NCBI GenBank assembly: GCA_956465555.1
Contig: OY101118.1
Location: 2,005,751-2,069,750 of the forward strand
Length of the DNA stretch: 64,000 nucleotides
Source of the DNA: Nitzschia sp. pyKryTriq1
Lineage: Eukaryota > Bacillariophyta > Bacillariophyceae > Bacillariales > Bacillariaceae
Direction: 5' to 3'
Part shown: piece after piece, positions 1 through 64,000 of the stretch
Layout of the letters: the number at the start of each line of letters is the position of its first letter
Numbering within the stretch: the stretch's first letter is position 1
Notes under the pieces: model-generated
What the model was told of the DNA's origin: nothing
The model's input: the letters and a program-made list of their open reading frames with translations, nothing else
Databases searched by the model: none
Translations under genes and position numbers: made by a program

Positions 1-1056
1 GAGGTCACATGGAGACATGAACCAAAGCCGCATTATATTTATGGCCGATATTATATCCGAGGGGAATCCACGCCAAGAGACGATTTTTTCCCCGTGACTT
101 TTGGAATGGTGGATAGCCCACTGCAAAGAAGTCCATGGTTGGACAAAGAAGAATGAACGCGGATGGACGATCTGCACTCACTCGTTCCCTTTTCACTGTG
201 GAGTGGTACTTGCAAATAGTGGCATGTAGCAAAATTTATCGTGCCAGTACAGACAGTAATACTTCCTACCGGTACCTGGTACCATTGTCATTTTATCTAC
301 CTTAGGGTGTCCTGTTCTTGTTCCCTGATGGTCGTTCACGTCGTCGTCGGAGGCAGGTTTTGATGGTTTTGACGACTCCTCCTCATGACTCATCACCCTC
401 TCCTCGCTCCTCGCCACGCCGAAATTCAGACGGTACCAGGTACCAGTGCTGTACGAATACCGGTACCTGGTACTGTACTCGTACGCCGTGGTTACCTCTG
501 CCGAAATTCCAAAAATGAGAAGTCGAGTGAGTCGTGATCGCGCATGCCTACTCGAGTTTCAGTATTTTTTGCCAGCGCGACACTTCACAAACCAATTAAA
601 TCATCCTGTGACCACGTCGATGCGACTCGCTACTTGTACCGGTACCAGGTACTGTACGTGGTACGGTACAAGTACAGCATAGCAGGTACAGTACAGTGCG
701 AACTGTAACGGTACCACGGTACAGGATTTTCACCTACGAAGGAATCCGTAACACCAGTACTGGTAGATACCTGTAGAGGAGGACCCGTCGTCGTTGTTGT
801 GAAACTCCGAGTATACTTGTTGTCTAGTTTTTCGCCTGGGTTTGCCGCCTTTTCGATAGTGCATGGTACAGCACTCGAGAAGAATCCGAATGTGGAACGA
901 TGACGAATGACGACGATCGACGCAATACGATGGAGAGAGCGAGGTATCGTACATCGTACGCGTACAGTACCTGGTTTTTGTACGAAAAGATAGCAAGGCA
1001 GAAGGCTCGTTATTCTTTAAAGCATCTGAAAGTATCCAAAGCATCTTCGATTGACC
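1..1056. other. Intergenic, with GTAC palindrome clusters
   Basis: I see no convincing gene here; open frames are short, unconserved in appearance, and overlap one another. GTAC/GGTACC palindrome clusters lie at about 271-290, 431-486 and 637-724. The last part is the upstream region of the bZIP gene. Confidence 0.6.
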
Positions 1057-2644
1057 ATGAGTTCTAACCACAATCCAGCAGTTCCTGAATCCCAGGATGA
1101 TTCCGCCAACAAACGAGCAGCTCTGGCCGGACAATGGAGAACTCCTCCCATGCCCGTATATCCGACAAGCACAGGATACGGCCTTCCACCCGGGCAACAT
1201 GCGCCTGCCCCAGCCCAACAACACACCCATATGGCACCTGCTCCCCCGCCCCAAGATACAGGTATGCATACTCTGCCCCCACCCTCGAACATTCCAAGTA
1301 ATTCCGAGGACTATGCAAAAGCCTTGCAGGAAGCCTACAGGAAGGGCGCTGAGGCTGCCGCTCGAATGGCCCAGCAGCAGCAACAACAACAGCAGATCCC
1401 GACGGCAGCGTCGTGTCCCAACTTCTCCACGGGCCCTCACTCTGCACCACCGCCACCTGCCATGACAGGGGAGTCTGTCGAAGATGCAGCCTATTCCCAT
1501 CAAGTGCACCCGACGCACACCTCGCATTCCACGCCGGATCCCCTGGCCAGCAGTTCGATGCCTCCACCGCCTCCGCCCCAGCAACAACAGCAGCTAACCC
1601 ATCTTCACCACTCGCAGCCACATGCCCCTCCAGCTGTCCATCACCATCACCACCACCATCATGCTCCTCCGCCGCCACCGTCGCATCATCACAATCATTA
1701 TGATTATTCGGCTCCAGCTGCTCAGCCTCCCGCGGAATATTCGTCGCCTGTCCCGCAGCCACACCACACGGCGCCGCCCAAGGCACCCCAAGGCCGCTCT
1801 CTCAGTATGCCCGACATGTCGACGTATGCGGCCCAAGCGGAGGAGGAAAAACGTCAAAAGCGGCTGGCAAGAAATAGGGCATCTGCCCGTCTACGAAGAC
1901 TTCGTAAGAAGAATCTGGTACGTGTCTCGACCTTGTTTTGTCTTGTTCTTCGAAGTGATGGTCTGCGTATCCATCATTCTGAATATATCTAACACTCACC
2001 ACATGTTTTGGTGCTCTCAGGTTGACGCTTATGAGACTGAAGTTGGTATTCTGGAGAAGACACTAAAACAGCTCAAGGCCCACGAGTGGGGTCGGGATGA
2101 CAACCATATCGCGCTGTTGGATGCGCTTGGAATGGAACGGGGACAACAAGCCATTCCAGCGGATCAACGTGCTGCGGTCATTCGCGACATCTTGAACCAT
2201 CAAATGCAGCAAGTCGAACTTTTGCGACAGGCCCAACTAGAACAAGAGTGCTTGGCCATGCTTGCTTCCGAAGAGAATGCTGACGACGAAATGGTCCGAG
2301 AATTGCAAGATCTTTTGCAACTGTCGGATGCTCAAAAGCAGGATCTACGAACTTGTAGTCAAGGTTTGGACAAAGAAGTCGAGGCACTCGAGACGATTGC
2401 GGCATCTTTGGAGGCCATGAAAGAAAATGATTGGCTTGTCAACGAAGGGGTGCAGGCAATCACAGATCAATTCACTTCCATCTTGCACAAGAACCAGCTC
2501 TCCAAGTTTTTGCTTTGGACCGATGTCAATGTGGAATCCATCGACCAGTTAGATCACGTCCAAGTGCAGCCACTACAAGGAGCCCCCATTTTCAATTTTG
2601 GCGTAGAGACCACACCGATGGATGACGACGACGGCAGAGCCTAA
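1057..2644 (+). CDS. bZIP transcription factor (two exons)
   Basis: Predicted nuclear basic-leucine-zipper DNA-binding protein of 494 residues. Exons are 1057-1917 and 2021-2644; the 103-bp intron (GTACGT...CTCAG) is phase 0 and cuts the domain just after the basic region. The basic region spans about N273-K285 (NRASARLRRLRKK), matching the family pattern N-x2-S-A-x3-R-x-R-K, with Arg where many bZIPs have Ser or Cys. A short zipper follows across the splice. The N-terminal 260 residues are low complexity: Gln runs near residues 105-113, a His run near 194-203, and Pro tracts. The C-terminal 200 residues are helical and acidic, with no second domain I recognise. The ATG at 1057 is the first in frame; an upstream TTG was ignored. 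Target genes cannot be inferred. Confidence 0.88.
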
Positions 2645-3412
2645 AAGTGATCGTGTTACCTTTCGGCTTTCTGGTAAGAAGACGGGACAATTGCATTCAG
2701 GGACTTGCAAAAATCAAGAAGTTGCATGTGGGTCCACCCTAGATCATTCCTTGCTTCAGCAATAAGCTGGTCGATGGAAGGGGCGTTTCACTATATATTT
2801 CACGCACGGCGATTCGGGAAACTCAATACAACGAGGACGACTCGAATCAATACTTCAAGCCACCATAGACTATAACTTGTACATTCTCGCGTGTGTTATG
2901 GCGGGAAGACATGATGGAATGAAATGAATAAATCACTCGCTCAGTAACTCAAAGGTCACTCGAGGCCTGGATTTATTATTTCCGTTCCGACACGCACGGT
3001 GAATTTTGGAAAGCCATGGACTTGGTGTCCAGACCTACTAATCAAGTTTTCCAATCAAGCTATTATAAATCACAACATACAAATATCGTCATATGAGCTA
3101 CATACCGCTGTACTGGTAGTAGAGTTACTCTACTATAAGAAGAATGATAACACGGTGTAGTGCACCGAGTATCTGGTTACACCATCGGACGAGACTATCA
3201 TAGTAGAGAATCACTTATTGTACTCATACAATGTACAGTGGCATGTATTATTGGCGCACATCATGGCGGTTCGGGCGGGCAAATTAGACTACCGTAAGAC
3301 TTCTCGTAGATTAGTCCTACCGGTAGCTTTACAGGTACCGGTAGATGATAGAGAGGGCCCTTTCTCTCACTACCTTCGACAAGCGAGCGTTTTCGAAAAA
3401 TCATAGCTCTAC

Positions 3413-3472
3413 CACTCTCTCTCTCTCTCTCTCTCTCTCTTAGAGAGTAGAGCTCTCTCTCTCTCCTCTCTC
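3413..3472. repeat. CT dinucleotide microsatellite
   Basis: A CT run is interrupted once by TAGAGAGTAGAG, giving two CT blocks that flank an inverted AG stretch. It lies in intergenic DNA. Confidence 0.9.
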
Positions 3473-3575
3473 TACTATACTACTACTAGTAGTAGAGTAC
3501 CTTTACATACCGGTAGCTCTTGACAGATCTGTTTCAGTTCTTTTTTCACGCGCTCCGTACACTGTTCGTAGAGGT

Positions 3576-3866
3576 ACAGTAAAGTACCCGTACCTGGTAC
3601 TGTACCAGGTACATGTACCACCCAGGACCAGTACCGTACTCGTACTGGTACTTTTACAGTACGTACGTGTACCGTACAACTACGTATCTCCGGGTGTGTT
3701 TCAGCAACACTATACGCCAGGCACGCACGACGAAGGATGGATGAAGGCATTACAGTATTACGTAACAGCAGTTCCATACCCGGTACCTGGTACTGTACGG
3801 TATCCGTAACAGGTACAGTACCTGGTACCGGTACCAGTACGACCCTGGTACTATCGATACCGGTAC
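3576..3866. repeat. Two dense GTAC palindrome clusters
   Basis: By hand count there are about 16 GTAC tetranucleotides between 3576 and 3677, where well under one would be expected by chance. A second block at 3781-3866 contains GGTACCGGTACC-type nested palindromes. It is one of more than twenty such clusters in the window. Confidence 0.85.
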
Positions 3867-4076
3867 ATCGCGTGATTTGTCCACGGCGCGGCGGTCCACG
3901 TACAGTCGTACTTGTACCTGTAAAACAAGAACAGCCCCTCGCCCTGAGCAGCGGCGGCGGCAGAGCGACATGTGATGAATGATGACCTGAATAGTCTCGC
4001 GAGAGGTGGACCGTCCCGCATTGCATCTGGACCAGTATACACTCTCACACACATATCTCTCCCAAGTGAGGAAACA

Positions 4077-8456: not shown

Positions 8457-8557
8457 GACTCTACAGGTACTACTGGACGTAAGAGAAAGGTCAATTTTTA
8501 CGACTAGAGTCTTCTTCCCCAGGTATGTTTCCCCTTCGACACCCCGACGATTTTTGC

Positions 8558-11500
8558 CTATGCATCAGTGTCTACTTGTTCGTAAACCCACACTCGGCCA
8601 ACTTTGCTCAATTTTCCATCATAGGTCAGCGCTGGGGCTCCCCCGACTACGTGGCTACCGTCACTGGACAGAGCAATAGACTGCCCAAAGAGGCCCCCTT
8701 CACTATCGAGCCGTCCAAGCTTCGATCCCACCTGTGTCCAGCTGCTACCGTCGTACCTCATAATTTTGACAAATCCAGCATTCTTGCCAAACGTGTCGTT
8801 CTCTGGGCTTCCAATCGCCAAGGTATCACCAGCTATTGACAACGCAACAGCAGAACCGAACCTGTCAAATTGTGCGTCGCCATTCATAGGCTCGCCCATT
8901 GGCATCCAAACTTTCGCAACGGCATCGTAATTGTAGGCGATTACACGGCCGACGCTGGTGCCTTTCTCAGAATAGCCATTTGAACCGACGGCCATGATAC
9001 CCCCGTCGTTTCCAAGTGCTAGCGAGACTCCAAAGGTCTCTCGAACCTTTTCCCCAAAGAGGCTCGGCCCAACTTGTACCCAGTTGTCCTCGTTTTCAAA
9101 ATCGAAGACACGAACTTCGCCTCTGAGGCGGTCGGATCCGACAGCTGATGCGGCCAATCGCCGACCATCACGGGACAACGCTATAGACCAGCCAAATAGT
9201 TCATTTGCTCCCCTTCCATGTAATTCTTGGCCAAGTTGCGCCCAGGTACCGTCGACGTTGTGATACATACGGACTGTCCCAACGTCGGTGGAAGTCTCTC
9301 CAAAACTTGCATATTGGTCCCCCACAGCAAGTATTTCACCGTTGGAGGAGAGTGCAAGTGAGGTACCGAAGGCGCTGGTTCCAACTAAGGCCGAGCCGTC
9401 AAGAATATCACCCAGCATTTCCCACTTTCCGTCTGATTCTTCTTGGTACATGGCAACGTACCCTCCGTCTGCTGTACCAGGAGCGCCAAACGCAACTCGT
9501 TTGCCGTCTTCCGAGATGACTACAGCAGTACCAGCATTGCCATCTACCTCGTGACCATGCAACTCAAAGGTGGTGGCCCAGCCAGTCCCGTTGAAATCCA
9601 TTATGAACACTCCACCCACCTGGGAGCTAATCCCCTCGTCGTTTCGCCTGTCCAACCCAGGAAGCCCTATGGCAACACGATATCCATCCCCTGACATGGC
9701 AACGCTGTAGCCATATTGGATGCTGTCGCTATTCGTTGGTCCCGTCAGCAGGTCGCCGAGTTGGTCCCAGCCTCTTATGGTGGGTACACAGTCGTCTTTG
9801 CAATCTTGGTCACCCCCATCGCTCGAGAAGACGACGCCCATCGCAATGCCCGCCCCTATTGCAAGGCAGAGGAAAAACAAAAATGCTTGAAAGAGACGGA
9901 CACGCTTGCGGACGGCCTTTTCGTCATCCCCAGGTTCCACGACTTGAGCCTGCGCATAGTCCACCTCGTACAGCTCTGCCTCAACAGGTGCAGAGGTTAC
10001 GACCGGTCGAAAGGCTGGTCTTTCTTCAGGTGGATCCCGTTGTGACGATGATATCACATCGGCGTGTGTGTTGTCGTCATCACTGACGACAGTGTCATCT
10101 TCAAAACCAGAGTCGTAACCGGAAGAAGGCTGGCCCATCTGGTCCGCACTCGAACTGATAGGTCGTACAGAAAAGGCCCCCGGTAGGACGACTGGGACGC
10201 CAGCTTGAGCTTCTAGATCTCTTGAACTTTCTTGGTCATCTGCCTCTTGAAGAATGTCAGATGCCATCACAGGCCCAAATGGCAGGCCATCATGGTCGGA
10301 GGCGGCACCAGTGCCTGGATCCTCTTCTTCTCGTTCGTGGTCCCCTGATGCAGGCGACACCGCATGGGCACAAGGACCAGCCTCACCATCATCATTGTGG
10401 AACTTCTCCTTTTCGTCGGATGATCGTTTATGTCGAGATGAGCTACTGGCCTCCGAGAGTGATCGACGAGAATTTCTTGCAGAATTCTTCTCATCACTGG
10501 GACGTGACTTTCTAGTCGAGACTTTGCCGACAGTAGTATTCGCCTGCCCCTTTCCACCTTTGCTGACAGAAGGAGGCAACGATGCTGTCCTTTCAATTGC
10601 TCGCAGCGACTTCAAACTTGATGGGGGTTCGCCATTCTCTTTGGCAGAGGCTTGCATGCTGTTTCGACGTCTGGCAATATGCATCGAGGACGACCGCGAA
10701 ATAATGTTGTTTCGAGTCTTGTCGTCCAAGTCAATACCACTGCTGAACGTGGCGACAGAAGCTCCATTCGCAGTTTCCGCGCTTTCCGTTTGTGCGTCCC
10801 AACCTTCTTCATTGGTTTCGTCACGGCTGTAGATGGTCGAACCGGAGCTTTTTCGCACCGGAATGGTGGGGGGCGAGTTAGAGCAATTCGAGTTCGACTT
10901 GGGAGGCTGATCCATGCGTGTGACAATTCCGCCAGTCACACTGTCTCTCAAAGCATAATGAATCTTCTGTTGGCGGTGAAGAGAGTTCAAGCCTGTAGAT
11001 GTATTCGCAAGGATCGCGCTCTTCCTCCCCCGAAAACGGGGAGTCTCTTGGGACAAGATATCGTCGCTGCCAGAGGATCCCATCGATCGAGAGGAAGTCG
11101 GAGGAAAGTCGTCCACCACAAGTTGGTCAGGTTCTCGAAGCACAGAAGAGTGACTAAAGGACGACGGGGCATCCATAGATTGCAAGAAGGATCTTCCGGG
11201 TTCTGTTCTTGCGGTGAAAGACGAGAACATTGCGTGACGTTTCGCCTCCGCTAACGAGCAAGCCTTTATGCAAGGAGAGGAGAGTCGACGCTCGATGATC
11301 GCCCTCTCGGTACCTCTCATCTTGAGGTTGTGCTCCTTCGCGGCGATGTCGTTTGCAACCACCTCAGAGATTAGGATTTGATTCTGTCTTTCTTGTTCCT
11401 GCGGGGTAGGTCCAGCGGGAATCCCAATGGCAATCACATTCGGATCCGTCGCGATTGAGGCCATATCTTCGGCGTAGGATGACTCATCTGCGTAGCTTGC

Positions 11501-12256
11501 CTCGAGAAACGAGAAGTCATCGTCAGCCATACTCAAGAGCTCCTCGTCGCCAGTCGCGTAGCTGGTGATACTACTGTTGGCGAAACTGCGCACGCTGCTC
11601 CTCGGGGACTTTTGAAGAAGCGAACGCCTGGAGGTGAGCCGCGGTGGGAGAGAATCCGTCCTGCGGGGTCCTGGTGGCTTTGCTTCTGGCATCGGTGCCT
11701 TGGATGAAGGGAACCACGCTGATTTCCCGGCAAAGGGCGACATGGTTGCCACCTGAGGTCTGAGGGCGTTGAGTGGTGATTTCTTCTTGTTCGCGAGTGT
11801 CTCGTGGTGACGAGCAGCACTTTGGGTAGCGCACTCTAAAGTAGTATTGCTCCGGGTAGGCCCGCTCATCGCTCTTGAACGCGGGGGCGGCTTACTGGCT
11901 TCGGAAGCGAGCTTCAAGCACGAGAAGGTATCGATGCTAGTAGACACTGAAGGAATCATCTTTCGAGAGACTGCTCCTTGAGTGTGTCCTTCTCCGTTGC
12001 GATAGTCTACGATCGCTTCTTCTCGTGGAGGGCACAAGTCAGAAGAGCCCCCTCCCCGCTGACGGCTTCCGAAGCATGGTGAAGTGTTCTGCCATTGCTG
12101 CTGGTGGGGGTGGTGGCGTTCACAAGGATATTGCCCTTGTTCCTGAACACCTCTCCATTGGATGTGATTATCATTGTTGGAAGACTCTGAGCTGCCAGAA
12201 CTTGCTCTCGCTGCTGCTCGAGAAGCTTCATGATGATTCGAACCCGCATGCTCCAT
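8558..12256 (-). CDS. Single-pass membrane protein with FG-GAP-like repeats
   Basis: Large uncharacterised protein of 1232 residues in one exon. Residues 1 to about 787 are low complexity (Ser, Arg, Pro, acidic patches) and probably cytoplasmic. One hydrophobic segment near 788-810 (FQAFLFFLCLAIGAGIAMG) follows a basic RKRVR stop, suggesting a type II topology. The outer part (about 811-1232) has a short Cys pair (CKDDC), then at least five repeats ending in forms such as SVAMSGDGYRVAIGLP, SLALSSNGEILAVGDQ, SIALSRDGRRLAASA and AVALSIAGDTLAIGSPE. These resemble the FG-GAP/beta-propeller repeats of integrin-alpha-like proteins. Such proteins are common in diatoms and usually unassigned. The ATG at 12256 is the first true ATG in frame; only a TTG lies upstream, so a missed 5' exon is possible. 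Function unknown; an adhesion or sensing role would be a guess. Confidence 0.85.
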   Translation of the reverse strand: MEHAGSNHHEASRAAARASSGSSESSNNDNHIQWRGVQEQGQYPCERHHPHQQQWQNTSPCFGSRQRGGGSSDLCPPREEAIVDYRNGEGHTQGAVSRKMIPSVSTSIDTFSCLKLASEASKPPPRSRAMSGPTRSNTTLECATQSAARHHETLANKKKSPLNALRPQVATMSPFAGKSAWFPSSKAPMPEAKPPGPRRTDSLPPRLTSRRSLLQKSPRSSVRSFANSSITSYATGDEELLSMADDDFSFLEASYADESSYAEDMASIATDPNVIAIGIPAGPTPQEQERQNQILISEVVANDIAAKEHNLKMRGTERAIIERRLSSPCIKACSLAEAKRHAMFSSFTARTEPGRSFLQSMDAPSSFSHSSVLREPDQLVVDDFPPTSSRSMGSSGSDDILSQETPRFRGRKSAILANTSTGLNSLHRQQKIHYALRDSVTGGIVTRMDQPPKSNSNCSNSPPTIPVRKSSGSTIYSRDETNEEGWDAQTESAETANGASVATFSSGIDLDDKTRNNIISRSSSMHIARRRNSMQASAKENGEPPSSLKSLRAIERTASLPPSVSKGGKGQANTTVGKVSTRKSRPSDEKNSARNSRRSLSEASSSSRHKRSSDEKEKFHNDDGEAGPCAHAVSPASGDHEREEEDPGTGAASDHDGLPFGPVMASDILQEADDQESSRDLEAQAGVPVVLPGAFSVRPISSSADQMGQPSSGYDSGFEDDTVVSDDDNTHADVISSSQRDPPEERPAFRPVVTSAPVEAELYEVDYAQAQVVEPGDDEKAVRKRVRLFQAFLFFLCLAIGAGIAMGVVFSSDGGDQDCKDDCVPTIRGWDQLGDLLTGPTNSDSIQYGYSVAMSGDGYRVAIGLPGLDRRNDEGISSQVGGVFIMDFNGTGWATTFELHGHEVDGNAGTAVVISEDGKRVAFGAPGTADGGYVAMYQEESDGKWEMLGDILDGSALVGTSAFGTSLALSSNGEILAVGDQYASFGETSTDVGTVRMYHNVDGTWAQLGQELHGRGANELFGWSIALSRDGRRLAASAVGSDRLRGEVRVFDFENEDNWVQVGPSLFGEKVRETFGVSLALGNDGGIMAVGSNGYSEKGTSVGRVIAYNYDAVAKVWMPMGEPMNGDAQFDRFGSAVALSIAGDTLAIGSPENDTFGKNAGFVKIMRYDGSSWTQVGSKLGRLDSEGGLFGQSIALSSDGSHVVGGAPALTYDGKLSKVGRVWVYEQVDTDA

Positions 12257-13584
12257 TGTGAAACTACTTCTGCCTCTTGTTGTTGGGTGCGACAAACTAC
12301 TCGGGCACGACAAAAAATGATAGTTGACGATGACTCTTCCGTTCTCTTGCCGGTTTGCAGAGGATCCAGATCATTGGAAGTGTGGACGAGCTCGAGTGGT
12401 GGTGGTGGTGGTGGTGCCTTCCTTCGCAGGTTTCGAGGACGTTTTTCGTCTTCCACTTTCGACGACGACGACTCCTCGCACACCGAAGAAGGAGGATCAT
12501 GCTACGTAATGCTCGCATCTGGACAGCTTCCGATGGAAAAGCGCTTTGGCAAAACTATTAGCAGGCAATAATATTTACTTATGGAAATCACAGTTCCTGA
12601 GAAAATAGCTCTTTGGCACAGAGCCGACTACCAGAATTTTCGTGGGGGGTGGCCGACCTCCCTGGAGTGGCCGACGTCCGCTCTTTTCTTAAGGGACGAC
12701 AAGCGAAACCGATTTTTCACTTATCAACAACGGAATGTCGTAGATGCACTGGGACACGGAAACTACTGTATGTACCGGTACCACCGCAGGTATACCCGGT
12801 AGTAGCATGAGTACGGCGAGTATTTTCGTTGTTTAGCGCGGGAAAAATAGAAATGCAATAAATAAAAATGATGAGGTGATGGAGATGGATCGTATTGGCG
12901 GAGGTGATACGTTCAGAATGTACGTATGATGTGCCTTTGTCATTCATAGAAGTACTACTCGTACAGGTAGTAAATAGGTGAACCATACCTCATACAAGTA
13001 CCCTCTCTACCCCCGTTGCTACTCTAGCTAGTAGAGACCCAGCGAGATACGGTACCTCATACCTTGTAATGTACGGGAGGTAGGTGGACTACTATTATGA
13101 TACTTCTTCTTTGACACCGACCATCCAAACAATCATCATCTGCTTTCTCTTTTATGTTACTTTTGGTGGAACTTGAAAGGATGTTGTTGGAAGGATGGCT
13201 GGCAAGATACCGGTAGCGATACTGGAACTCGCCTTCAATCCAAAGACCACAAGTCAGCCGTGGTAAACTGTTTATATGCAGCTAGTAAATGAAATAGTAT
13301 TAGTTTGCGTGATTCAACAATACATCTGCAGTTCGTGTGGTGATTCAACAAGACATCTGTTGAAGACCGTTCCGCAGCTTCAAATCCGACGGGGAGGAGT
13401 TCGTTGACTATGCTTCAAGCAAAAGCTCAACCAATGGGGTATCATTAGAGCATTCAAGTAAAAACTACAATCAATATCTTCATTTATTGGGGACATTTTC
13501 CGTGAATCAACTCTGGCCACATTCCTCTAGAGCAAACAACCATGCATTTTTCTGACCTTTGAGTCCTGGCCCAATGTCACCCAT
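12257..13584. other. Intergenic, no gene seen
   Basis: It lies between the 5' end of the FG-GAP-like gene and the 3' end of the CBS gene. A GTAC cluster is at about 12771-12800, and scattered GGTACC and CTAGTAG words occur near 12965-13080. Open frames over 12007-12571 are shadows of the neighbouring gene's 5' region. Confidence 0.5.
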
Positions 13585-18147: not shown

Positions 18148-19349
18148 ACTCGAAATGATGATGAAAGGGTGCTGCTCGTTCGTTATCGGTTAGGCGGAAT
18201 AAGTACGGAATCCAATGTTCAATCAAAGATAATATGAGAACATGCTGCGAGGAAAGCTTCCTCCTCCTACAGGTACAAGAGTACTTTCACACCAAAAACG
18301 ACTCCTTTCCTCCTCCAACTCCGTGCGACGTTCCCTTCCTCGGCTTCTCGCTCTGCTCGGAGTGGGGTAAACATCCAAAAAGAATTCTGCATTTTGGGGC
18401 CCAATAAGCAAGCGAGAGAATTCGCATTATCCACGTTTCAAAACACGTCGACGCACGGCGGTCGGTACTTGTACTGTACTGGTACTACTTGTACGAGCTG
18501 TATCGTACTGTTGCCGGTTACCGGGTGCCACGCACCCCCACGCACGCACGAACGGGTGGTTACGACCCGTTAACCGAACAGCCACTTACGCATGTACCGG
18601 TACGAGTACAGTTAGTACCAGTTCGTCGTACTTGCACTGGTACTTGTGCAGAGTACAGTACCTGTAGACTTGTACCAGGTACCGGTGTAGAGAAATACCG
18701 GTATGACCGGCCGGCGCTGGACGGCTGCGCAATTTCTGTCTGTCCTCTGTCCGCGCCCTCGATTAAAATTTGACTCCTCTGACTCTCCAGCAAAAGTAAC
18801 TTGTGTTCGGTGTTCGGCCCGCGCGCCCCGCCAGATGTGTCGAAGCGGGATCCTTGGAAGGACCACCACGCACGCACTCGGATCGAAAACAGACAGACAG
18901 GTCGTCCTAATCGAAGTTTATCGAAGAGCTTCTCAGATAAAGTGTCGCGTGTATTATTGCGCGAACACAAGGAAGGAAGAAGCCCCACCGACCACGCGCT
19001 ACTGAGTTGCTTCCCGCACACGCCGGCCGGAGAACCATACCCGCAGGCCGCCCACAACCGCGTCAACAAGCACCATGCGCCGCGCTGCATGCCAGAAAGA
19101 CGGGTGCGCGTGTTTCGGCTGCAAAATGTGGTGGTTCGCCACGATTTTCCATCGGCGCTGTTTATTACTACAGTACTGATTAGTCTACCAGTATTTTTGT
19201 CGTGAAAGAGCGCTTTGGAAATCAGCCGCCGGCGGCCCCTCTACCTCTATCATCCTCCGTCCGCCAGTAAAAATTGCAGGAGAGAACACGGATAAAAAGA
19301 CCCCAAAATTTCCATCACACAAAAAAATATTAAAATAGTCACTTCCACC
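18148..19349. other. Divergent upstream region with GTAC clusters
   Basis: It separates allantoicase (-) from the SIM-bearing protein (+), so it contains both promoters. GTAC clusters lie at about 18462-18500 and 18595-18706. Open frames of 130-180 codons on both strands overlap these clusters, look unlike protein, and several lack an ATG; I do not call them. Confidence 0.55.
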
Positions 19350-33802: not shown

Positions 33803-33980
33803 GGTGAAAAGAGTCCACTGCGAGTCACCAAGTGGACTGTCTACTGGCGTTGCAAGAGACAAGAGAGATTCATTGCTCTCGAGCGTCAAGGTACTTGTAC
33901 CAGGTAGTAGCCAAATTAGACAGAGCACTTTTTCGCTGCTTTATGATATTTCATAGGTAGTTGTAGTAGTAGGTACGAGG
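33803..33980 (+). repeat. Dispersed repeat, copy A
   Basis: It shares with copy B (about 61740-61955) an ordered series of blocks: AGTCCACTG, GGACTGTCTACT, TTCATTGCTCTCGA, CGTCAAGGTA, AAATTAGACAG, then CACTTTTTCGCTGCTTTA, followed by a TAG-rich tail. GTACC words interrupt the element. Confidence 0.75.
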
Positions 33981-41318: not shown

Positions 41319-42498
41319 TTTTAGGTATTAATATGTAACTTGGACTCAGACTGTTCGCAGAAATTGAATGTCAATGGAGGGAGAACTATATTATGTACTT
41401 CTTTCTATGTCTTGCTCGTTCGTTTGCCGCCATTGAATGTCAACCAATAGTCCCTGGTGCCTGATGCTGAGGCACCTATGTTGCCTGTTGTTGGCTCTGT
41501 TGTTGGCTTCGTTGGCTGGATTTGGATGACGAGCGGGACGTGGCCTTGAACGATATTCTTGTCACTTTAACTGCCGGTACGAGAATGTTGTTGTCTACTG
41601 AAGTAAGCCGTGCCGCAGCGCCAAAAGATTCATTCCATGATGCCTCTGCATTCGACGACGACGTTCTCCTCTACGGTACCAGGTACCAGGTACGGTGAAG
41701 ACTACCGGTACGTGCCGGTATGAGTAATCGTACATACAAGTACCGGTTCAGTGCGAGTAGAGCACACGGCAGCGGCGGGCACAGGGCCCGGGGGCCCGGG
41801 GGGGTAGACACAAGGACACAGAACGACGCAAGTACACGGTACCGTACGTACGTACAGTATGATGGTACACCATCCGGCCGCCCCCCTCCCCCCGCCCCGC
41901 CCCCGCTCGCCACCCGGTACGATTACTTGCTAGTACCGAGTTCTCTTCTCCGACGAAGAGGTGGTGTGCAATAATGCGATCATGACGCGGTTGTGACGAA
42001 CAAGAGTGACGAACGTATTGCTCGGCTTTTCGTTAATTGAGGAAGGTTCGAGTGAAATTTAGCATTTTCCTACTTATAGGATTACACGTCACGGTAGGTT
42101 CTGTCTGGTCCTTCGCGATAATTCTCGCGTGTTCCCTTGCTTGCGTGAACGTACACGGACGGTACGTACTTGAACAGTACCGGTACCGTAGCTTCCCACT
42201 CGATCGTCGCTTCCGAAATTCCGAAAAAAATGCGGGTTGTTTCGTTTTTCTTCTCCGTTTCACTCACCATCACTACAGTAAAAACTAATGAAGAATTGCA
42301 ACAAGAACCAAAGACGCAATTCGTCGTCCACCTTTACACAACAAAGTATACATCGAACAGACGAACGTGTCCAAATTCTTTGCGTCGCTATAAATAAAGA
42401 GTTGGTTTCAAATTGAAGATTTCTCCCTGTGGAAGCCTCGCCATCAACCTTCACAAAATCACAAGAGTCAAATCAAGTTCCTTACATACTCCGGTAGT
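41319..42498. other. Intergenic with GTAC clusters and G/C tracts
   Basis: It contains GTAC clusters at about 41674-41745, 41832-41866 and 42153-42190, and G- or C-rich tracts at 41785-41806 and 41878-41912. It is the shared upstream region of the FAD monooxygenase (-) and the TPR-like gene (+). No gene is supported. Confidence 0.6.
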
Positions 42499-45059: not shown

Positions 45060-48000
45060 ATGTCTCTTGAAGCGAAATTTGAAAAACTTTCTGTCGACGA
45101 CGCCTCCTCCGTCGTCGATACTGTCAAATCCGAGGGTGTTGAAAAATCGGGCTTGGCGGCGAATGTTTCCGTCCTTGCGGCACGATGCGCTTCCGATGAC
45201 GATGCCGAAGCCCTTGCTGCTTTGAAGACAGTGAAGGCTTTGGCTGAAAGCGGCATTACTGCAGCTCAAGTATTCACAAAGGAATGCCTTGGCGCATGTA
45301 AGTCACCAAAAGTCTCGCAACATTTTTCCATCTGAGTTTTCACCGAAAGAATTTTTCTGGCGAACTGTGTGAGGTCACAGTTGTCTACTGTGCAAACATT
45401 GCCATTTTACCGGGATACGACTTTGATGTTGCCAAAATGTACAGAAATGATCGGAAAAATCTGACTCTTTTTCTTTCTCCCTTCCTTCTTCACCTTCGCC
45501 TATTTCTCAGGTCTCGAGCAAGCCAATGCCAAGAGTGGCGAAGTGAAGTCTGCTGCCACGGAAGCTGCTTTCGCTATCTGCGACAATGTCAACCCCTTCG
45601 CCATGAAGTCGCTCCTTCCTACCATCTTCTCCTGCCTTCCTGTTGAGAAGAAGTGGCCCATTCGTGAGCTTGCGCTCCTGTGCATTGCGCGCTTCCAGCC
45701 CATCGCACCCAAGCAGCTCGGTGACGCCCTTCCCCTTGTTGTACCTGAAGTCACAGCTTGTATGTGGGACACAAAGAAGCAAGTCAAGGTTGCCGCCACT
45801 GACGCGATGAAGAAGGCCCTGGATGTCATCGGAAACCGCGACATTGAGCACATGACTTCTAAGATTTTGACTGCCATCACCAAGCCCAAGGAAGTCCCTG
45901 AAATCATGCACGAAATGGCCGGTGTTACGTTCGTCCAAAGCGTGGAGTCTCCTGCTCTTGCCATGGTTGTTCCCCTATTGCTTCGTGGACTAAAAGAAAA
46001 ATCTACTGCTACCAAGCGTCAAGCTGCTGTTATCATTGACAACATGAGTAAGCTTGTCGATGATCCTATCGGCGCTGCTCCTTTCCTTCCTTTGTTGCTT
46101 CCTGCCTTGGAAACCAACGCAACCAGTATCGCTGATCCTGAAGCTCGTGAAGTTACGGAGCGTGCTGTGAAACAATTGAACCGCCTCAAGGGATTGGCCG
46201 ACAAGGCTATGTCGGTCCGTGGAGATGTCTCCAAGTTGGAGACAGAATTCAAGAAGGCTTTCAACGCAACTGATTCTGAAGAATCTAAATTGGCCACCAT
46301 CAAGTATGCGTGTGTTATTGCCACAACGATGATGGACTTGCATTTTATGGAGGATCTTCAGTGGAAAAAGAACATCCTCCCCTTCATGGAGCCATACTAT
46401 CCCAAGGATGATGCTGAGAAGAACATTGAGGTTGTCCGTGAAGAGGCTGAAAAAATGTTGGAGATCCCCGACGAAGAGGACGACGACGAAGATGCCGAGG
46501 AATTGTGCAACTGTATGTTTACTCTCGCCTATGGTACCAAGATTCTTCTCCACAACACCAAGATGAAGCTTCTCAGAGGACACCGATACGGTCTTCTTGG
46601 ACCCAATGATTGTGGAAAGACCACTCTCATGAGATCTATTGCCAATAACCAAGTTGAAGGTTTCCCTGATGTGACCCAAGTTCGTACTGTGTTTGTTGAG
46701 GCCGATATTCAGGGAGAACAATCCCACCTTTCTTGTGTGCAGTACGTTGCTGCTGACACAAAACTCCAAGCAATGGGAGTCACCGAGGACCAGATCCGTT
46801 CGGTTCTTTCCACTGTCGGATTTACTTTGGACGGAAAGGCCAAGCCCGATCACGCCGTGTCTACTTTGAGTGGAGGGTGGCGCATGAAACTTGCCTTGGC
46901 GCGTGCCATGCTTCAACAAGCTGATATCCTCCTCTTGGATGAGCCCACAAATCACTTGGGTAAGTTCACGTTCGCATGGATGTGCAAAACTAATTTGATC
47001 CCGACTTTTATCTAACATGTGTTTTCACAGATGTCATCAACGTGGCCTGGGTCAAGACCTACCTCAACTCTTTGACGAATGTCACTTCTATCATTGTCAG
47101 TCATGATTCTGGTTTGTTGAACGATTGCTGTACCAACATTCTTTCTTTCGACAACTTGAAGCTTCGAAATTACAAAGGTAACCTCGACGAGTATGTCAAG
47201 GTCAACCCTGCCGCCCGTTCGTACTTCTCTTTCTCTGAGTCGAAGATGAAGTTCAAGTTCCCCTCCCCGGGACCCATCGAAGGAGTCAAATCCAAGGGGA
47301 AAGCCCTCATGAAAATGAGCAACTGTACTTTCACTTATCCAGTCAACCAAACCCCAACTCTTTTCAACATTACCGTTCAGGTGTCGCTAAGTTCCCGTGT
47401 TGCGTGTATCGGAGAGAACGGAGCAGGGAAGTCGACCATGATCAAGCTTCTAGTCGGAGAAATTGTTCCCCAAGAAGGAGACGTCTGGAAGCACCCTAAC
47501 GCACGTGTTGCTTACGTCGCCCAACATGCCTTCCACCACATTGAAAGCCATTTGGGCAAGACCCCCAATGAGTACATTCGATGGCGATTTGCCAACGGCG
47601 GTGAAGATAAGGAGAGTTTGGTCAAGGTTGCGTTGCAGTTCACTGATGAGGAACTTGCCCTCCAGAAGAAGCCCTTCGAGCTTCAGATCGTCGATGAAGC
47701 CTCTGGAAAGATTTCCAAGGTCAAGAAGGTTGTGGCAGAACTTGTTGGTGGACGTAAGATGAACAAGAGTAAGGAATACGAATATGAGGTGAAGTATGCT
47801 GGATCAACCGTGGATTCCGGTGAATACTTGCCTGCCAAGACCTTGAAGAAGATGGGGTGGGAAAAGAACATGAAGGCTGTCGATCTCAAGCTTGCCCAGC
47901 TCGCTGGTATTTTCGTCAAGCCTTTGTCCACAAAGAATGTTGAGGAGCACTTGGAAGGTTGCGGTCTTGCCCGCGAGTTCGGAACACACTACCGTATGTC

Positions 48001-48466
48001 CGCTCTCTCTGGTGGACAAAAGGTCAAGGTCGTTTTGGCCGCTGCCATGTGGATGCAACCACACATCGTCATCTTGGACGAACCCACCAACTACCTTGAT
48101 CGTGAGAGTTTGGGAGCTCTTGCCGGCGCTATCGAAGATTTCGAAGGAGGTATTATCATCATTTCGCACAACAACGAATTCGTGTCGAAGCTTTGTCCTG
48201 AAACCTGGGTCATGGACGCCGGTCATCTTGAGACTAAGGGAGATGCCGATTGGATGTTAAAGCAAGATACTAAGATCGATGACCAACAACAATTGACTGA
48301 AATGACGGATGCCGCCGGTAACAAGGTCGAAATGAAGCAAGAGAAGAAGAAGCTCTCGAAGAAGGAAGAAAAGGTTCTCATCAAGAAGATTAAGCAAAAG
48401 ATCAAGGATGGAGAAGCGCTTGATTCCGACGAGGAAGAGTTGGCCTTCGAGAAGGACCTTTTGTAA
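45060..48466 (+). CDS. TEF3: Translation elongation factor 3 (EF-3, ABC-F ATPase; three exons)
   Basis: Ribosome-bound ATPase that helps release E-site tRNA during elongation; best known in fungi. Exons are 45060-45297, 45511-46959 and 47031-48466, giving 1040 residues against 1044 in yeast. Residues 1-310 are HEAT-like repeats (AAFAICDNVNPFAMKSLLPTI), followed by a helical bundle. ABC1 has Walker A GPNDCGKTTLMRSIA, signature LSGGWRMKLALARAML and Walker B ILLLDEPTNHLD; the second intron falls inside this last motif. ABC2 has GENGAGKSTMIKLL, signature LSGGQKVKVVLAAAMW and IVILDEPTNYLDRESLG, with the EF-3-specific chromodomain-like insert around KEYEYEVKYAG. The Lys-rich C-terminal tail (KKLSKKEEKVLIKKIKQK) matches the fungal ribosome-binding tail. 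All catalytic motifs are intact. Confidence 0.97.
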
Positions 48467-50888: not shown

Positions 50889-52117
50889 GGTAGCAGAGAT
50901 TTATTTTTACGTCGAAATCGACAACGATTTTGAAGGTGGGAGGAGCTGGATCAATTGTAATCGAAGAGAAGAAGGGGCGATCTTCCTCTTCGTTTTGTTT
51001 GTGTCGTCGGTCGACCCGTGTCGTGCGTGACAAAATGTTATTGCTTAGGTTTTAAGGTTTTGCTGGTGGTGGTACCGGTGGTGTACTGTAGACTACAGTA
51101 CCAGGTACTGTACTTGTACCAGTCTTCTCTCGTCCCGGTACAGTGCAGCGCACAGGTTATTTGTTTTCCTTTTACGGCGTTGTCTCGTAGAAGTCGTACT
51201 ACTGCTTGCCGATGACTATTGCTACCATGACCCAAAAAAGATCGGACTACATAACGGTACAATCGTGTCTGACCGTCCATCAGACCCCAATGTCCTTATC
51301 GAACCGTCCGTCAGTCCAACGAACGATCTCGAACTATCGTCTCGGAACCAAATCTTGAATCTTGGAAAGCAACTGAAACGGAACACACTTCATATATCTT
51401 TAGTCGGTTCCGAATGATCTACTTCCGTGAACCAGACATCACAATCATATTCTAATCTTATAATTTGGAAAGTCAATCATTTTACACTGTTTTTAGTTTA
51501 TTGTGCGATATCGGTCTGGACAACCAGTATCCCCACGCTTCATATGTCGAGAGGGAGAAATGGATGGAAGCCGCCCGCATTGAAATCGAAGCTCTCAAAA
51601 AGATGCACTGTTGGGACGAAGTTCCAATATCCGATGCTGGAAACGCCAAGAAGACAAATTCTTCCTAAGAATTTGATGGGGCTTTCTCCAGACCCAATCA
51701 TCGACCATCTGTCATGGTGGTCTATCTGAGTGTGAGTATATCGCCACGGGTCTCGAGAGCGTCCGTCTGTACGTACTACGTACATACCACTACTCGTATG
51801 CACCATACGTAGGTACAACGGGAATATAATATTATTATAATCATGTACCCTCACACGGTAATGACCACGGTAGTAGAGATGCGAGAGGGAAGATATGATA
51901 CATCATGATACCGGTAGCCGGTAATCTTTGCGGTCAGACGACTTCACTATCAACTCTACTTCATTCTTCTTGAGTCTTGAGACACAAAACCAGCCATAGA
52001 ACCGACCGCCCATCGGAATGGACCTTTTGGTATCGTAGATACTCCTACAACGTACCAGTACTGTGAAACACTGAATTTTGTCTGTGCGACTTTCCCTCTC
52101 GTCGTGCGTGGATCTTC
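50889..52117. other. Intergenic with GTAC cluster and a copia fossil
   Basis: It has a GTAC cluster at about 51069-51143, CCGTC/ACCGTCC words near 51270-51310, and a retrotransposon fragment at 51500-51690. The end is the upstream region of the flavin-reductase-like gene. Confidence 0.6.
51500..51690 (+). mobile_element. Ty1/copia retrotransposon fossil (fragment before the reverse-transcriptase domain)
   Basis: The peptide EKWMEAARIEIEALKKMHCW followed by DEVPIS resembles the conserved stretch at the start of the copia reverse-transcriptase region, in a form like the diatom CoDi groups. Only about 190 bases are recognisable; no LTR, gag, integrase or RNase H was seen nearby. It is a broken, small remnant and likely old. 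Confidence 0.7.
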
Positions 52118-52756: not shown

Positions 52757-52848
52757 ATTATACCGACAGGCTCAAGGGCGAGCATGGAATCAATCAGATG
52801 CCAAAAAGAATTTCATCCCCTGGAGTAGTTCTGCATTAAATTTTAAAA

Positions 52849-54336: not shown

Positions 54337-55015
54337 GATCGATCGACAATTTCAATTATGACAGATTGCTTCAACCGCTCAGCTATCAAAGTGAACGTGA
54401 TAGAGACCATTTTGTCTATAGTCCAAATCGCTGTTTTCCGCCATGTTGCTTTTCGCGCGTGATCGAGTTATGTAGTAGCATATCCATACACCACTACAGT
54501 ACCCGGTACGCGCACTGTACACGTACCGGTACCAGGTACTGTGTAACAATCATCAAGCTTGAATTTGAGAAGAAGATTGTCGTTTGCCACAGACTGACTC
54601 GGGAAATTATTGGCTGGCTCGACAAATATTCAGATTATATTCGTGAATCGATATCATCAAAAAATGTTTGCATATGCTTTTGGCGTTAACGAAGCCGGCC
54701 ACGTCGAGCGCGGGGCGAGCTTCAAGCCGGGCGTACATGTAAAAGAGCGTGATAAATCGACACCAGAAGGAGAATGCTACAGGTACAGCTGTATCAGCTA
54801 TCAGTACCTGGTACTTGTACCAGTACCGGTACTTGTGCAGTACGTGAAGGGCAACGTTTCTGAAACAAAAGTAGCGGCTGCTCTGATCAAACAAGGATAA
54901 GGATGTTCGAGCATAACTATGCGTAATAAAATAACCTAAACATTCATCCTACGCTTGGTACGATTGGCAAGGGCAGAGGTACTAGGTTGGCAAGATCCGA
55001 GTTGTTTCTACGCCC
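54337..55015. other. Intergenic with GTAC clusters
   Basis: It lies between the BTB 5' end and the eIF3a 3' end. GTAC clusters are at about 54500-54542 and 54803-54843. No gene is supported; frames at 54607-54900 run through a cluster. Confidence 0.55.
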
Positions 55016-59699: not shown

Positions 59700-59800
59700 T
59701 CGGGGTTCAAGTGCGTAATTTAGGTCAACTACGTACTGATAAAACGAGCACCCCGCTACGACATCTTTCGAGGCTAAATTAGCTATAAAGCAAGAAGTGG

Positions 59801-61066: not shown

Positions 61067-62623
61067 CGCTGTCTTGGCTCGATGTAAGAGGGTCCACCAA
61101 AGTTGGACGAAATCCCCATGCCAAAGTAGTGAACACTCTGACCTGGGCCAACGATATATCACTGGTGTAAAAGACACCAAAGACTCCTCTCTACTCTAGC
61201 GTATCAAGCTACAGGTATGTGCCGTGCTCTGTTACTCTGGACCTTTTGAAGGCGGTCACTCATCTCCGAGATGACTACGACTTGTACCATACCGGTACTT
61301 CTGTACCGGTAGCGGTATGGTACTGTAGCTGTTGATTGTCGGCATTACAACTTGTACTGTACCTGGTACTGTACTGGTAAAGTACGAGTGAGTAGGCTGC
61401 AGGTCGGTGCGGAGGAGGCAGGATTATTGAATATTCGTTCTTCGAATTTCGGGCGCGCGGGCGGGGACGTGCAAAGTTCGCTTGTCCACGTCACGATGTT
61501 GCGTGTGCACCACCGGTACCGGTACAAGTACGTGTACCACCGTTAGAGATTTTTCGAGTCGTCGTCGCAGCCAGCTACTATTGTAACGGTACCTGGTACC
61601 TGGTACTGTTCTTTACGGTACATACCGGTACGAACCGGACAAGATGAATGATACTTACCGGTACAGTACTGCTGGTACCGGGCGGGGTAAATAAAAAAGT
61701 CTTATTTACCCCTGGATACTACTACTAGCTACCAGAGGGGTGAACACAGTCCACTGAGTCAAGCAGAGGACGACTGTCTACTATCTGGCGCGGCTACTAT
61801 CGTTCCGGCGGAAGAGAGGTTCATTGCTCTCGACCGTCAAGGTAGTAATTAAATTAGACAGTGGCTGCACTTTTTCGCTGCTTTACGATATAGTAGTAGA
61901 GTAGTCTCTACTACTAGAGTAGTAGTGTAGTCTCTACTACTAGAGTAGTAGTACTCTGGTACCGGGTAGAGTACTAGAAGAGTACAGTAGTAGTACCGTA
62001 TCGTCATGCTGTCATCTCTGTACTACATGTGGTCTCTCTCCTGCTCTACTACTACTACAGTACCTGGTACTCGTACTCTCTGGGTACCGGTAGAGTCTAC
62101 CTCTACTACAGTACTACCGGTACCTACTACTAAGTAGTAGAGAGATGATAGTAGAGAAGAAGAATCTCCCAGTCCTCTCAACTAATTCGCTACAGACAGG
62201 AGGCAAGATCTGTGAGGTTGAGAGGTGATCATGCATACCCTCCAACAAGAAGTTCGTACTTAGTATCTACTCCTACTGCTACAGAAGTAGCGTAGAGTGG
62301 CTTCAGCTAGTTTATGATCCTCTCGGACTACTACTCTAGTATGATAATGATGTGTGTGGGTGCGCGCTGACAGAGGTGAATACGCAGAATAGACCACAGA
62401 GACTTCGAAGAAGTAGTAGCTCTCAAGTTATTTCTGCTAGCATGGACGACTCGTCCACTGAATCCTGAAATGACTGAATCCTACCAGCACATACAGGTAC
62501 CCACTCAAATGTGAGGAATCGTGTCATCTTCTTGTCAGCATTCCGTGATATTTCCATAAGCTTTAGGTCTGGCTTAGACCGGCTAGTTCTAGTAGAGTGG
62601 TAAAACTGCAGCTAGCTAGCAAG
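61067..62623. other. Long intergenic region, densest repeats of the window
   Basis: It has no supported gene. It holds GTAC clusters at about 61283-61388, 61512-61680 and 61960-62122, dispersed repeat copy B, and tandem CTACTACTAGAGTAGTAG hairpins at about 61895-61955. Short CTAGTAG words continue to about 62420. Confidence 0.65.
61740..61955 (+). repeat. Dispersed repeat, copy B, with hairpin tail
   Basis: The body (61740-61893) matches copy A in ordered blocks. It runs into two tandem units of about 27 bp, each holding CTACTACTAGAGTAGTAG, an 8-bp inverted repeat with a 2-base loop. Confidence 0.75.
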
Positions 62624-63649
62624 TTATGGCAAATCGAATCTGGTCAAGCTGTCAGGAAAGAATTTCCAGGGTATTCTGCGGTAGAATTCGTCCAATAGAG
62701 ATCGTCCTTCCCATCTCGGGGAAGGCATCTCGCTCAGCCGGAGCAGTTGTCGAGAAAACTGTCCGGTCTTCAGGAAGTTCCATCGCTCCCACAACTCGGA
62801 ACTTGTAGTGCCGGATGGTTGGCTTTCCCAGAGTCCGTGAGATGGCTGGAATGTAACTTGCATAGTCGGTAATTGCGGCCAACTGCTCGAGAGCCAGTTG
62901 GCAAGGAGAGCAGGGTCGTCGTCCGAAATATTGGTGGGAACACGGGCCGCCAGATCGGTGCTCATAAAGTAAAGCTCGGTGCTCATGAAAGTTCTTGCCA
63001 CCATTTGTCGGCACTTCCACATCGAGAAACCCCCACAATCCCATCTATCACGTGGAAGGCCCCCAATCACCCTATACAAATCTGGTGAAGCAAGCATGTC
63101 CCCAGTGGCCTCCAAGAATTTATCAGGAAACAAAAGTGTAGTCGCGTCCACCTTTGCTACATAATCTACATCAGCTCTCGACGCATAACGGAACCACCTC
63201 GACAGGAGGGAGTAATCTCGAGCTTCAGGTAAATAAGTAATGTCTTTTGCATCTCCGAATATGGGTGCGGACGATCCGTAGTCTTCAATCAGCGAAGATG
63301 GCAACACAAAGGTATAGGCGATCTGACAGTACGTTGGGAGTTGCACCCCATCTCCCAATACACATATTCTGGGGTCACTCGCTAGATAGGTCCGCCTAAG
63401 GATTTCTCGAGTAGTATCATCGTCCGGATGACTTACAATCCCCCAAGCAAATCGCACGGGTTCAGACTCCACTAACCGCCTTCTCCTCCGCGTTGAAGAC
63501 GCCAGTACTGATCCGATTGTACCCCGCAGTTGCCGCCGTTTTCCCCCGTCTACAATACGAGTTTCGTCACCGTGGTCGGGCACTACAGCAAAGTTGAGAA
63601 GTGTTCCCAAGACGCAGAGCGCCCCCAGTATTGCTAATGATTGCTTCAT
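62624..63649 (-). CDS. Type II Golgi-type glycosyltransferase-like protein (GT31-like)
   Basis: 341 residues, one exon. A short N-terminal membrane anchor (about 3-23, SLAILGALCVLGTLLNFAVV) is followed by a basic stem (RRRRRL). The domain resembles beta-1,3-galactosyl/glucosaminyltransferases of family GT31: DTTREILRRTYLA recalls R-x2-I-R-x-TW, then ICVLGDGVQLPTYCQIAYTF, SRWFRYASRADVDYVAKVDA, and YRVIGGLPRDRWDCGGFSMW. The usual metal-binding DxD is seen only as KVDATT, so activity is uncertain. Likely Golgi, making wall or glycoprotein glycans if active. The relation is by motif order only and is moderate. Confidence 0.65.
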   Translation of the reverse strand: MKQSLAILGALCVLGTLLNFAVVPDHGDETRIVDGGKRRQLRGTIGSVLASSTRRRRRLVESEPVRFAWGIVSHPDDDTTREILRRTYLASDPRICVLGDGVQLPTYCQIAYTFVLPSSLIEDYGSSAPIFGDAKDITYLPEARDYSLLSRWFRYASRADVDYVAKVDATTLLFPDKFLEATGDMLASPDLYRVIGGLPRDRWDCGGFSMWKCRQMVARTFMSTELYFMSTDLAARVPTNISDDDPALLANWLSSSWPQLPTMQVTFQPSHGLWESQPSGTTSSELWERWNFLKTGQFSRQLLRLSEMPSPRWEGRSLLDEFYRRIPWKFFPDSLTRFDLP

Positions 63650-64000
63650 GTCGACTTTCTAACTAGACTAGTTTTTGTACCTGTATTAGCTTCCGATCTT
63701 CATCTTCTCTTAAAATACATGTGTGGGCCTATTGTGCTGTTTTCTGGTTGTTTCTGACTAAATACGTGTATCACAACGTGTACTGTACCGGTACCGGTAC
63801 ACGTACTGTACAGAGGGGAAGAATTTTTTGATAAATTCCGCGAGAGCGTTTGCTTTTTTGGCGTTGCATGGCTCTGCAGGAGCGCGCCGACCGAGCTGGC
63901 CCGCCGTTAATTTGCGCCCATGAATGTCGCAGTTACTTTCACACGACAACCACCCAAAAATTTCGAATGTCAACGACACGACTGATCAAATCATGGTACA
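63650..64000. other. Upstream region at window edge
   Basis: No gene is seen. A GTAC cluster lies at about 63779-63810, some 130 bases before the glycosyltransferase-like ATG on the minus strand. Sequence ends at the window edge. Confidence 0.5.

Follow-up and report, generated by a model that had tools for sequence, protein, structure and literature searches.

In grasses, Stowaway-type miniature elements are mariner-like elements of TA targets, whose small footprints lie beside recognizable elements. Tc1/mariner transposases introduce staggered breaks at TA-flanked elements, and once the ends are joined the overhang stays behind with a TA on either side (PMC7827188; PMC3878927); for Sleeping Beauty and Frog Prince, the footprint at TA targets is given as C(A/T)GTA (PMC3878927, Table 1). 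Here, we examine a 64,000-nucleotide stretch of the diatom Nitzschia sp. pyKryTriq1, referred to below as the window (bases 2005751–2069750 of contig 4, OY101118.1; assembly GCA_956465555.1, 40.65 Mb in 20 contigs), whose intergenic DNA is studded with clusters of the palindrome GTAC. These clusters are built from a short module, TA-C-N(1..3)-G-TA, which in one dispersed repeat has been gained by insertion at TA with duplication of the TA, and which could be the excision scar of a Tc1/mariner-like transposon.

Clusters were defined as at least four GTAC with gaps of no more than 60 bp, and by this definition the window, with 427 GTAC in total, holds 32 of them, so the clustering described in the original prediction is real. 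Coding segments were called by a phase-specific Markov model with Viterbi decoding, the noncoding state being a dinucleotide model only, which limits the risk that GTAC words themselves drive the coding/noncoding split. Outside predicted coding sequence lie 31 clusters (compared with 0–5 in 20 order-1 simulations); the claim that none occurs inside a coding sequence or intron thus survives for all but the cluster at 9446–9531, which sits within predicted coding sequence (8563–12058), and 36 intron-like gaps (2817 bp) carry 17 GTAC against 8.5 expected, as well as five modules. The same partition was applied to a larger sample, in which the window was joined by twenty 10-kb pieces spaced 500 kb apart on contigs 1–3 (264 kb in total, approximately 0.65% of the genome, with shorter loci read besides), in which GTAC density was 10.3/kb in noncoding DNA and 2.8/kb in coding DNA. 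Genome-wide, the palindrome TACCGGTA occurs 15,515 times versus 839 for the mirrored palindrome ATGGCCAT, and GGTACCGGTACC occurs 501 times versus 19 for its mirrored word.

Several finer statements about placement could also be evaluated. The ten intervals singled out at the outset are all noncoding, with 5–14 GTAC each, and the EF-3 gene is near chance as proposed (8 GTAC in the coding segments of 45009–48456), while the densest 100 bp contain 14 GTAC rather than the 16 claimed. The clusters are indeed hardly tandem arrays, in that only two of the ten Tandem Repeats Finder rows in the window touch a cluster, with overlaps of 35 bp and 2 bp. A preference for upstream regions is present and moderate only: GTAC reaches 11.5/kb on 5′ flanks and 9.8/kb on 3′ flanks, the corresponding values for modules being 7.6/kb and 4.6/kb, and GTAC density peaks at 21.9/kb, 300–400 bp upstream of predicted coding starts. 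The supposed absence from short tail-to-tail gaps did not hold up, since GTAC density is 8.2/kb over 35 such gaps and 8.0/kb in the 16 gaps shorter than 300 bp.

The unit behind the clusters is the module TA-C-N(1..3)-G-TA, in the forms CWG, CCGG, other CNNG and CCWGG (W, A or T), and GTAC is the junction of two modules. GTAC as the unit itself was rejected: outside modules it occurs at 8.0% of 4954 free TAs (about 396), close to the 382 expected for all GTAC, and 1047 are present, so the excess arises from the abutment of modules. Spacings between neighboring GTAC peak at 5 (87 cases), 6 (149) and 7 (67), with further peaks near 11–12 and 17–18, and the commonest linkers are A/T at spacing 5 (65/87), CG at spacing 6 (46/149) and CTG/CAG at spacing 7 (47/67). 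Modules were counted in the 99.5 kb of noncoding DNA of the sample against order-1 and order-2 expectations. For TA-X-TA with X beginning with C and ending with G, the order-1 comparison gave 221 versus 23.9 at length 3 (9.3-fold), 390 versus 24.0 at length 4 (16.3-fold) and 119 versus 23.9 at length 5 (5.0-fold). Among individual classes, CCGG was found 124 times (1.07 expected under order-1, 116-fold; 3.3 under order-2), CCWGG 58 times (0.56, 104-fold; 1.4) and CWG 169 times (13.4, 12.6-fold; 30), and the order-1 excess was 23-fold for CTAG and 16-fold for both CAAG/CTTG and CCAG/CTGG. CGAG/CTCG (63 versus 3.4 under order-1, 18.5-fold) has the form of the 4-base footprint of Minos. The CSG class (S, C or G) is weakly enriched (52 versus 10.5, order-1), and TACATGTA occurs only 7 times versus 1.7 expected. 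Isolated TACCGGTA, with neither a preceding G nor a following C, accounts for 23 of 124 occurrences, when 1.07 would be expected for all TACCGGTA together. Noncoding DNA contains 129 chains of at least two modules, where five order-2 simulations gave 3–12, and coding DNA contains 3; the chains reach eight modules in the sampled DNA. Chains and clusters of the window, for which no strand is assigned, are listed below.

458..483: parsed chain TA-CCGG-TA-CCTGG-TA-CTG-TA-CTCG-TA, in the noncoding cluster 433-484
631..674: longest parsed chain in the window, seven modules (CTTG, CCGG, CCAGG, CTG, CGTGG, CGG, CAAG)
3585..3650: chains of five and three modules in the densest GTAC block (14 per 100 bp from 3584), upstream of the EMP70 gene
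3777..3839: two parsed four-module chains (CCCGG, CCTGG, CTG, CGG; and CAG, CCTGG, CCGG, CCAG)
18465..18682: two adjoining clusters with 6 and 10 GTAC (chain CTTG-CTG-CTGG at 18466-18484)
41672..41692: parsed chain CGG-CCAGG-CCAGG
51094..51118: parsed chain CAG-CCAGG-CTG-CTTG
54518..54545: parsed chain CACG-CCGG-CCAGG-CTGTG
54805..54831: parsed chain CCTGG-CTTG-CCAG-CCGG
61355..61379: parsed chain CTG-CCTGG-CTG-CTGG
61517..61536: parsed chain CCGG-CAAG-CGTG
63781..63810: parsed chain CTG-CCGG-CCGG-CACG-CTG

How modules arise can be followed in R80, a dispersed repeat of approximately 65 bp found by comparing the sampled pieces with each other, with copies in the window (33885–33950 and 61836–61905) and at loci L005, L014 and L020; a first look yielded 419 candidates, of which 40 were scored. 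The two copies in the window include a filled and an empty site.

33885..33922, plus strand: R80 copy with a 13-bp insertion (33894-33906) at TA, reading TA-CTTG-TA-CCAGG-TA; ancestral copies read GTCAAGGTAG
61836..61860, plus strand: R80 copy of ancestral length (empty site)

In its wider context the first of these reads CAAGGTA-CTTG-TA-CCAGG-TAG, and its siblings read CAAGGTAG. A genome-wide pattern search between exact anchors recovered 139 R80 copies of ancestral length and 32 longer ones, 30 of them distinct; a census with other anchors gave 24 lengthened copies. The lengthened copies were then subjected to a reduction test, in which each of 256 grammars (that is, every combination of target dinucleotide and end bases) was used to remove whole 3–5 base inserts together with one duplicated dinucleotide. 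TA with C..G reduced 9 of the 30 to the ancestor with two mismatches allowed (8 of 30 with one), the next best grammar (GT with A..G, partly the same events shifted by one base) reduced 3 of 30, and all others 1 or 0. The nine copies carry 14 modules in total (CAG; CCGG; CGAAG and CTG; CTAG twice; CTTG and CCAGG; CGG and CTG; CCAGG; CCTGG; CTGG and CTG), and since five of the nine contain two modules, insertion events appear to cluster. GTATTAGCT, the site of the CAG scar without its insert, is present twice among the 100 ancestral-length copies listed. By eye, the nine-base core of 18 of these 100 matches none of its four common forms; set beside 14 modules in approximately 169 copies, this places module gain per TA in the same order as substitution per base, a rough estimate given the exact anchors. 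R80 thus displays exact insertion at TA with the TA duplicated, as in Tc1/mariner footprints, and from this one repeat family and the sample-wide grammar we consider it highly probable that modules originate by insertion at TA. The earlier suggestion that the clusters are landing sites of a small element therefore stands insofar as the words arise by insertion in R80, but the seed is TA with a 3–5 base C..G insert, GTAC being a by-product. As a separate observation, several R80 copies adjoin TAG/TAC runs.

The modules could plausibly be nested excision scars of TA-targeting Tc1/mariner-like transposons, with array instability added, the best single explanation, to which we give about an even chance. 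Each module would be the scar of one insertion event at TA: the element would duplicate the TA on landing, and on departure its terminal bases would stay behind as short 3′ overhangs, pair, and be sealed by end joining, leaving 3–5 bases (C..G) derived from the element's ends between the two TA copies. Pairing of the overhangs would place C opposite G at the edges, and the mismatched center of odd-length overhangs would be resolved to A or T. Every scar would hold two TAs, allowing later events to nest and chain, and because a scar begins with C and ends with G, each abutment would read G-TA-C, that is, GTAC. Scars would be kept between genes and lost from exons, presumably by selection. Such a model accounts for the TA duplication, the C/G ends, the A/T center and the nesting, and also for GTAC at the junctions and for the rarity of modules in exons.

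A number of observations weigh against this interpretation, beginning with R80 itself. There, 21 of the 30 lengthened copies are not wholly explained; six of the 21 are +3 changes, mostly resembling TAG/TAC slippage, and the others comprise tandem duplications, complex changes and one possible chance match; in four of the unexplained copies (C2:3112134, C3:2198578, C8:528329 and C13:104170) a clear module can be seen by eye beside another change. At a second TA of R80 (TTTACG), modules explain none of ten lengthened copies, one of which contains TA-CTTTG-TA. The CCWGG class, unlike the other classes, has GTAC on both sides in 47 of 58 cases and may have another origin. On the side of the scar reading, frame-shifting modules in coding DNA are at chance (CWG, 8 versus 6.5; CSG, 5 versus 6.2; CCWGG, 0 versus 0.5; other CNNNG, 11 versus 13.7), 6-bp modules exceed chance (CCGG, 4 versus 0.7; other CNNG, 27 versus 13.3), and the count of TAC-N2-GTA (31 versus 16.5 after codon shuffling) was reached by 1 of 200 shuffles. 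This coding-frame test is only suggestive, as 0 of 200 shuffles likewise attained the counts of the control words CAT-N4-ATG and CAT-N7-ATG, and TAC-N5-GTA too is in excess (23 versus 16.5, 11 of 200 shuffles).

The search for a donor element raises further difficulties. A TA-flanked transposon family of the form TA|CGGCCGATCAAAACCC...|TA was found as copies of 1474 bp (L037:1501-2974, contig 12) and 437 bp (L039:1097-1533, contig 3); its ends are CGGCCGATCAAAACCCGCCGG, each of these two full copies has TA on either side, and L038 holds a third end. Its ends finish in CGG and so predict CGG/CCG scars, which belong to the weakly enriched CSG class. The DNA read (264 kb and the shorter loci), where low-copy donors could escape notice, contained no element whose ends are CAG, CCGG or CCWGG. 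Across the 264-kb sample TA is the leading flank of inverted 11-mers (16, the next being AT with 7), but most of the TA-flanked pairs are scar words, and after masking, five TA pairs remained, none of them convincing. Profile searches yielded two matches for DDE_3, with a single family of ends that does not fit the scars; none for Transposase_1, for which the control was silent as well; and one gene without inverted repeats for DDE_1. Three candidates were rejected as donors: an inverted repeat in L016, which is single-copy; L025/L026, with ends CGCTACATTTTGCGG, differing flanking letters and TA at one end of L025 only; and the DDE_1 gene in L032, which is one gene and lacks inverted repeats.

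The 1474-bp copy in L037 has near-perfect arms of approximately 330 bp and an open frame of 275 aa. L025:110-2759 and L026 represent a DDE_3 (IS630/Tc1-like) transposon family, with arms of approximately 105 bp starting CGCTACATTTTGCGGAACA. In L032:2047-4632 (contig 7), an open frame of 862 aa carries a pogo-type DDE_1 domain; no other DDE_1 gene was found, and no inverted repeats lie nearby. It looks like a domesticated transposase gene, and its first catalytic D appears to be replaced when compared by eye with the motif. A further inverted-repeat element of 982 bp (L039:1885-2866) is bounded by GGGACCTTCGGGAATTCGC and contains an array of GGTTAACCGC palindromes.

The turnover of clusters was examined in a segmental duplication (L040 and L041, between contigs 1 and 3; 92% identity over 6 kb) that was traced via one odd R80 copy common to both loci and that constitutes a natural experiment for the mutation spectrum of the organism. 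Reading frames were left out, and three scoring schemes, two exclusions and two definitions of density were applied, one of which admitted only GTACs common to both copies. Gap openings amounted to 27–60 per kb in GTAC-dense DNA and 8–12 per kb in GTAC-free noncoding DNA, and mismatches to 2.7–5.8% and 1.5–1.9%, respectively. The indel excess in GTAC-dense noncoding DNA is thus 3–5-fold in this one duplicated pair, which the difficulty of aligning repetitive sequence may inflate; counting reading-frame columns as GTAC-free gives a 13–16-fold gap excess, which is confounded. Also at odds with the scar model, modules account for just 3 of 19 or 4 of 16 of the 5–40 bp indels that could be scored (still first of the 256 grammars), and under stricter isolation for 1 of 8, and TA with C..G no longer leads. 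The clusters are hypervariable, and clean scars are a minority of the alignable changes within them; array instability probably adds to their turnover and may supply much of it. Repeated local copying, as originally envisaged, is therefore only partly right, inasmuch as modules form chains and, in this duplication, the clusters vary more than the rest of the noncoding DNA. In a tandem array, C7 (L042), the units were too alike to reveal scars.

A process at TA that requires no transposon, in which a nuclease or recurrent breaks would be joined via self-complementary bases or templates would switch between short inverted repeats, with the arrays slipping thereafter, seems to us rather unlikely, although several results fit it. 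The inserts in the nine R80 copies are diverse (CAG, CTG, CGG, CCGG, CTGG, CTTG, CTAG, CCAGG, CCTGG, CGAAG), a greater variety than a small number of transposon families should leave behind; indels, complex ones included, abound in GTAC-dense noncoding DNA; and no matching element turned up in the DNA searched. Against it stand the fixed C/G ends, the exact TA duplication, the A/T center and the identity with C(A/T)GTA, all of which are readily sourced from transposon ends. Flanks are mirrored in 8 of the 23 isolated TACCGGTA, approximately the third expected from three free letters per side, and fold-back copying was rejected on these counts as the source of isolated scars; the 46 of the 124 TACCGGTA with a G..C pair are mirrored too, but these are module junctions. 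Should the donors really be absent, a TA-cutting enzyme that works without any transposon would be the preferable reading. Ordinary micro- or minisatellite drift of short TA-containing words we regard as quite improbable: it would suit the enrichment of TAG/TAC runs (TAGTAGTA, 52 versus 1.5), the +3 changes in 6 of 30 lengthened R80 copies and the indel-rich clusters, which behave as unstable repeats, but Tandem Repeats Finder, which looks for head-to-tail copies of one unit, misses almost all clusters, TACCGGTA occurs in isolation far above expectation, and R80 gains whole modules.

In plants, SBP proteins recognize GTAC cores, and the clusters might instead be homotypic arrays of sites that a regulatory protein binds, each with an TACCGGTA-like or GTAC core, selected near promoters and renewed by insertion at TA, an explanation to which we attach little probability. 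The greater density on 5′ than on 3′ flanks and its maximum 300–400 bp upstream of predicted starts are in keeping with it, and TACCGGTA (M94) and TACATGTA (M93) are given as 'high-confidence' predicted promoter motifs of Phytophthora infestans (PMC3597505), which counts against scars as well. Conversely, GTAC-dense noncoding DNA changes faster than GTAC-free noncoding DNA in L040/L041, so that conservation relative to comparable flanking DNA, the mark of a cluster of transcription-factor sites, was not observed in that pair; the spacing varies (5, 6 and 7); modules are inserted within an unrelated repeat; and tail-to-tail gaps carry GTAC at the density given above; and TACATGTA reaches only 7 versus 1.7. 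The protein-binding array entertained in the original prediction is therefore disfavored by cluster variability and insertion grammar, the Phytophthora motif remaining in its favor.

Among the genes of the window, nine of ten long open frames matched Pfam at E ≤0.001, including EMP70, MFAP1, allantoicase, ubiquitin hydrolase, LanC-like, EF-3 and eIF3a, and one had no match; a leucine-rich-repeat match fell below its own cut-off, and Rfam at gathering thresholds gave no match anywhere in the window. A 1270-aa open frame (8561–12370, minus strand) has a weak FG-GAP_2 match, and a protein search with it returned seven proteins at E ≤0.001 among 7,988 candidates scored, including one that is identical to it over 80% of its length. 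Palindromic TAG/CTA runs such as CTACTAGTAG (window 61892–61952 and elsewhere; 15 in noncoding DNA versus 0.08 expected) form another class of self-complementary words between genes. A second dispersed repeat, which contains GCGCTATCGCA and AAAACTCGA, is found at L014:3336-3394 and L025:3014-3071 (83% alike), and the palindrome TAGCGCTA, which is enriched (10 versus 1.03), is related to it. Scanning viral contigs for GTACCGGTACCWGGTAC gave two matches, which were phage-like and due to chance.

In searches of the freely readable literature on diatom motifs and transposons, excision footprints and the words TACCGGTA, ACCGGTAC and GTACCGGT, we found no description of such scars, the sole match to TACCGGTA being the Phytophthora study. 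M94 is the commonest 4-base module here, and both M94 and M93 are palindromes of the form TA-CNNG-TA (PMC3597505). In Phytophthora, where stage-induced promoters contain them in excess, they are predicted binding sites (PMC3597505), whereas in Nitzschia the modules chain with 5- and 7-bp relatives and occur as insertions. Either a stramenopile factor may read these words, or the same kind of scar may exist in Phytophthora. If the scar reading is right, it would be a reason for caution in motif discovery, TACCGGTA having been predicted as a promoter motif (PMC3597505). A bolder proposal, which we advance tentatively and think unlikely in its full form, is that a genome-wide, ongoing engine writes C-N(1..3)-G-TA into TA steps at a rate per TA that, by rough count, rivals base substitution. 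Much of the intergenic DNA would then be stacked scars and spacers would grow by footprint accretion, the agent being either a few hyperactive, near-invisible local hoppers or an unknown TA-cutting enzyme, and some stramenopile TA-CNNG-TA 'promoter motifs' would perhaps be scars of the same engine.

The closest parallel is with Sleeping Beauty and Frog Prince, which have in common with the present system the TA target, the duplicated TA and, for the CWG module only, an identical footprint (PMC3878927). The Nitzschia modules differ from these in comprising 3-, 4- and 5-base inserts of several sequences, in forming chains of up to eight, in their sheer number as judged by TACCGGTA, and in that the DNA read yielded no donor for the main classes. 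If the scar interpretation is true, the scar alphabet would constitute a fossil record of active elements even after their loss. Compared with Stowaway in grasses, where elements are recognizable beside their footprints, scars are abundant here and elements scarce in the DNA read; if the scar interpretation is true, excision scars would be more than small marks beside transposons and would rank among the main sources from which a compact eukaryotic genome builds its intergenic DNA.

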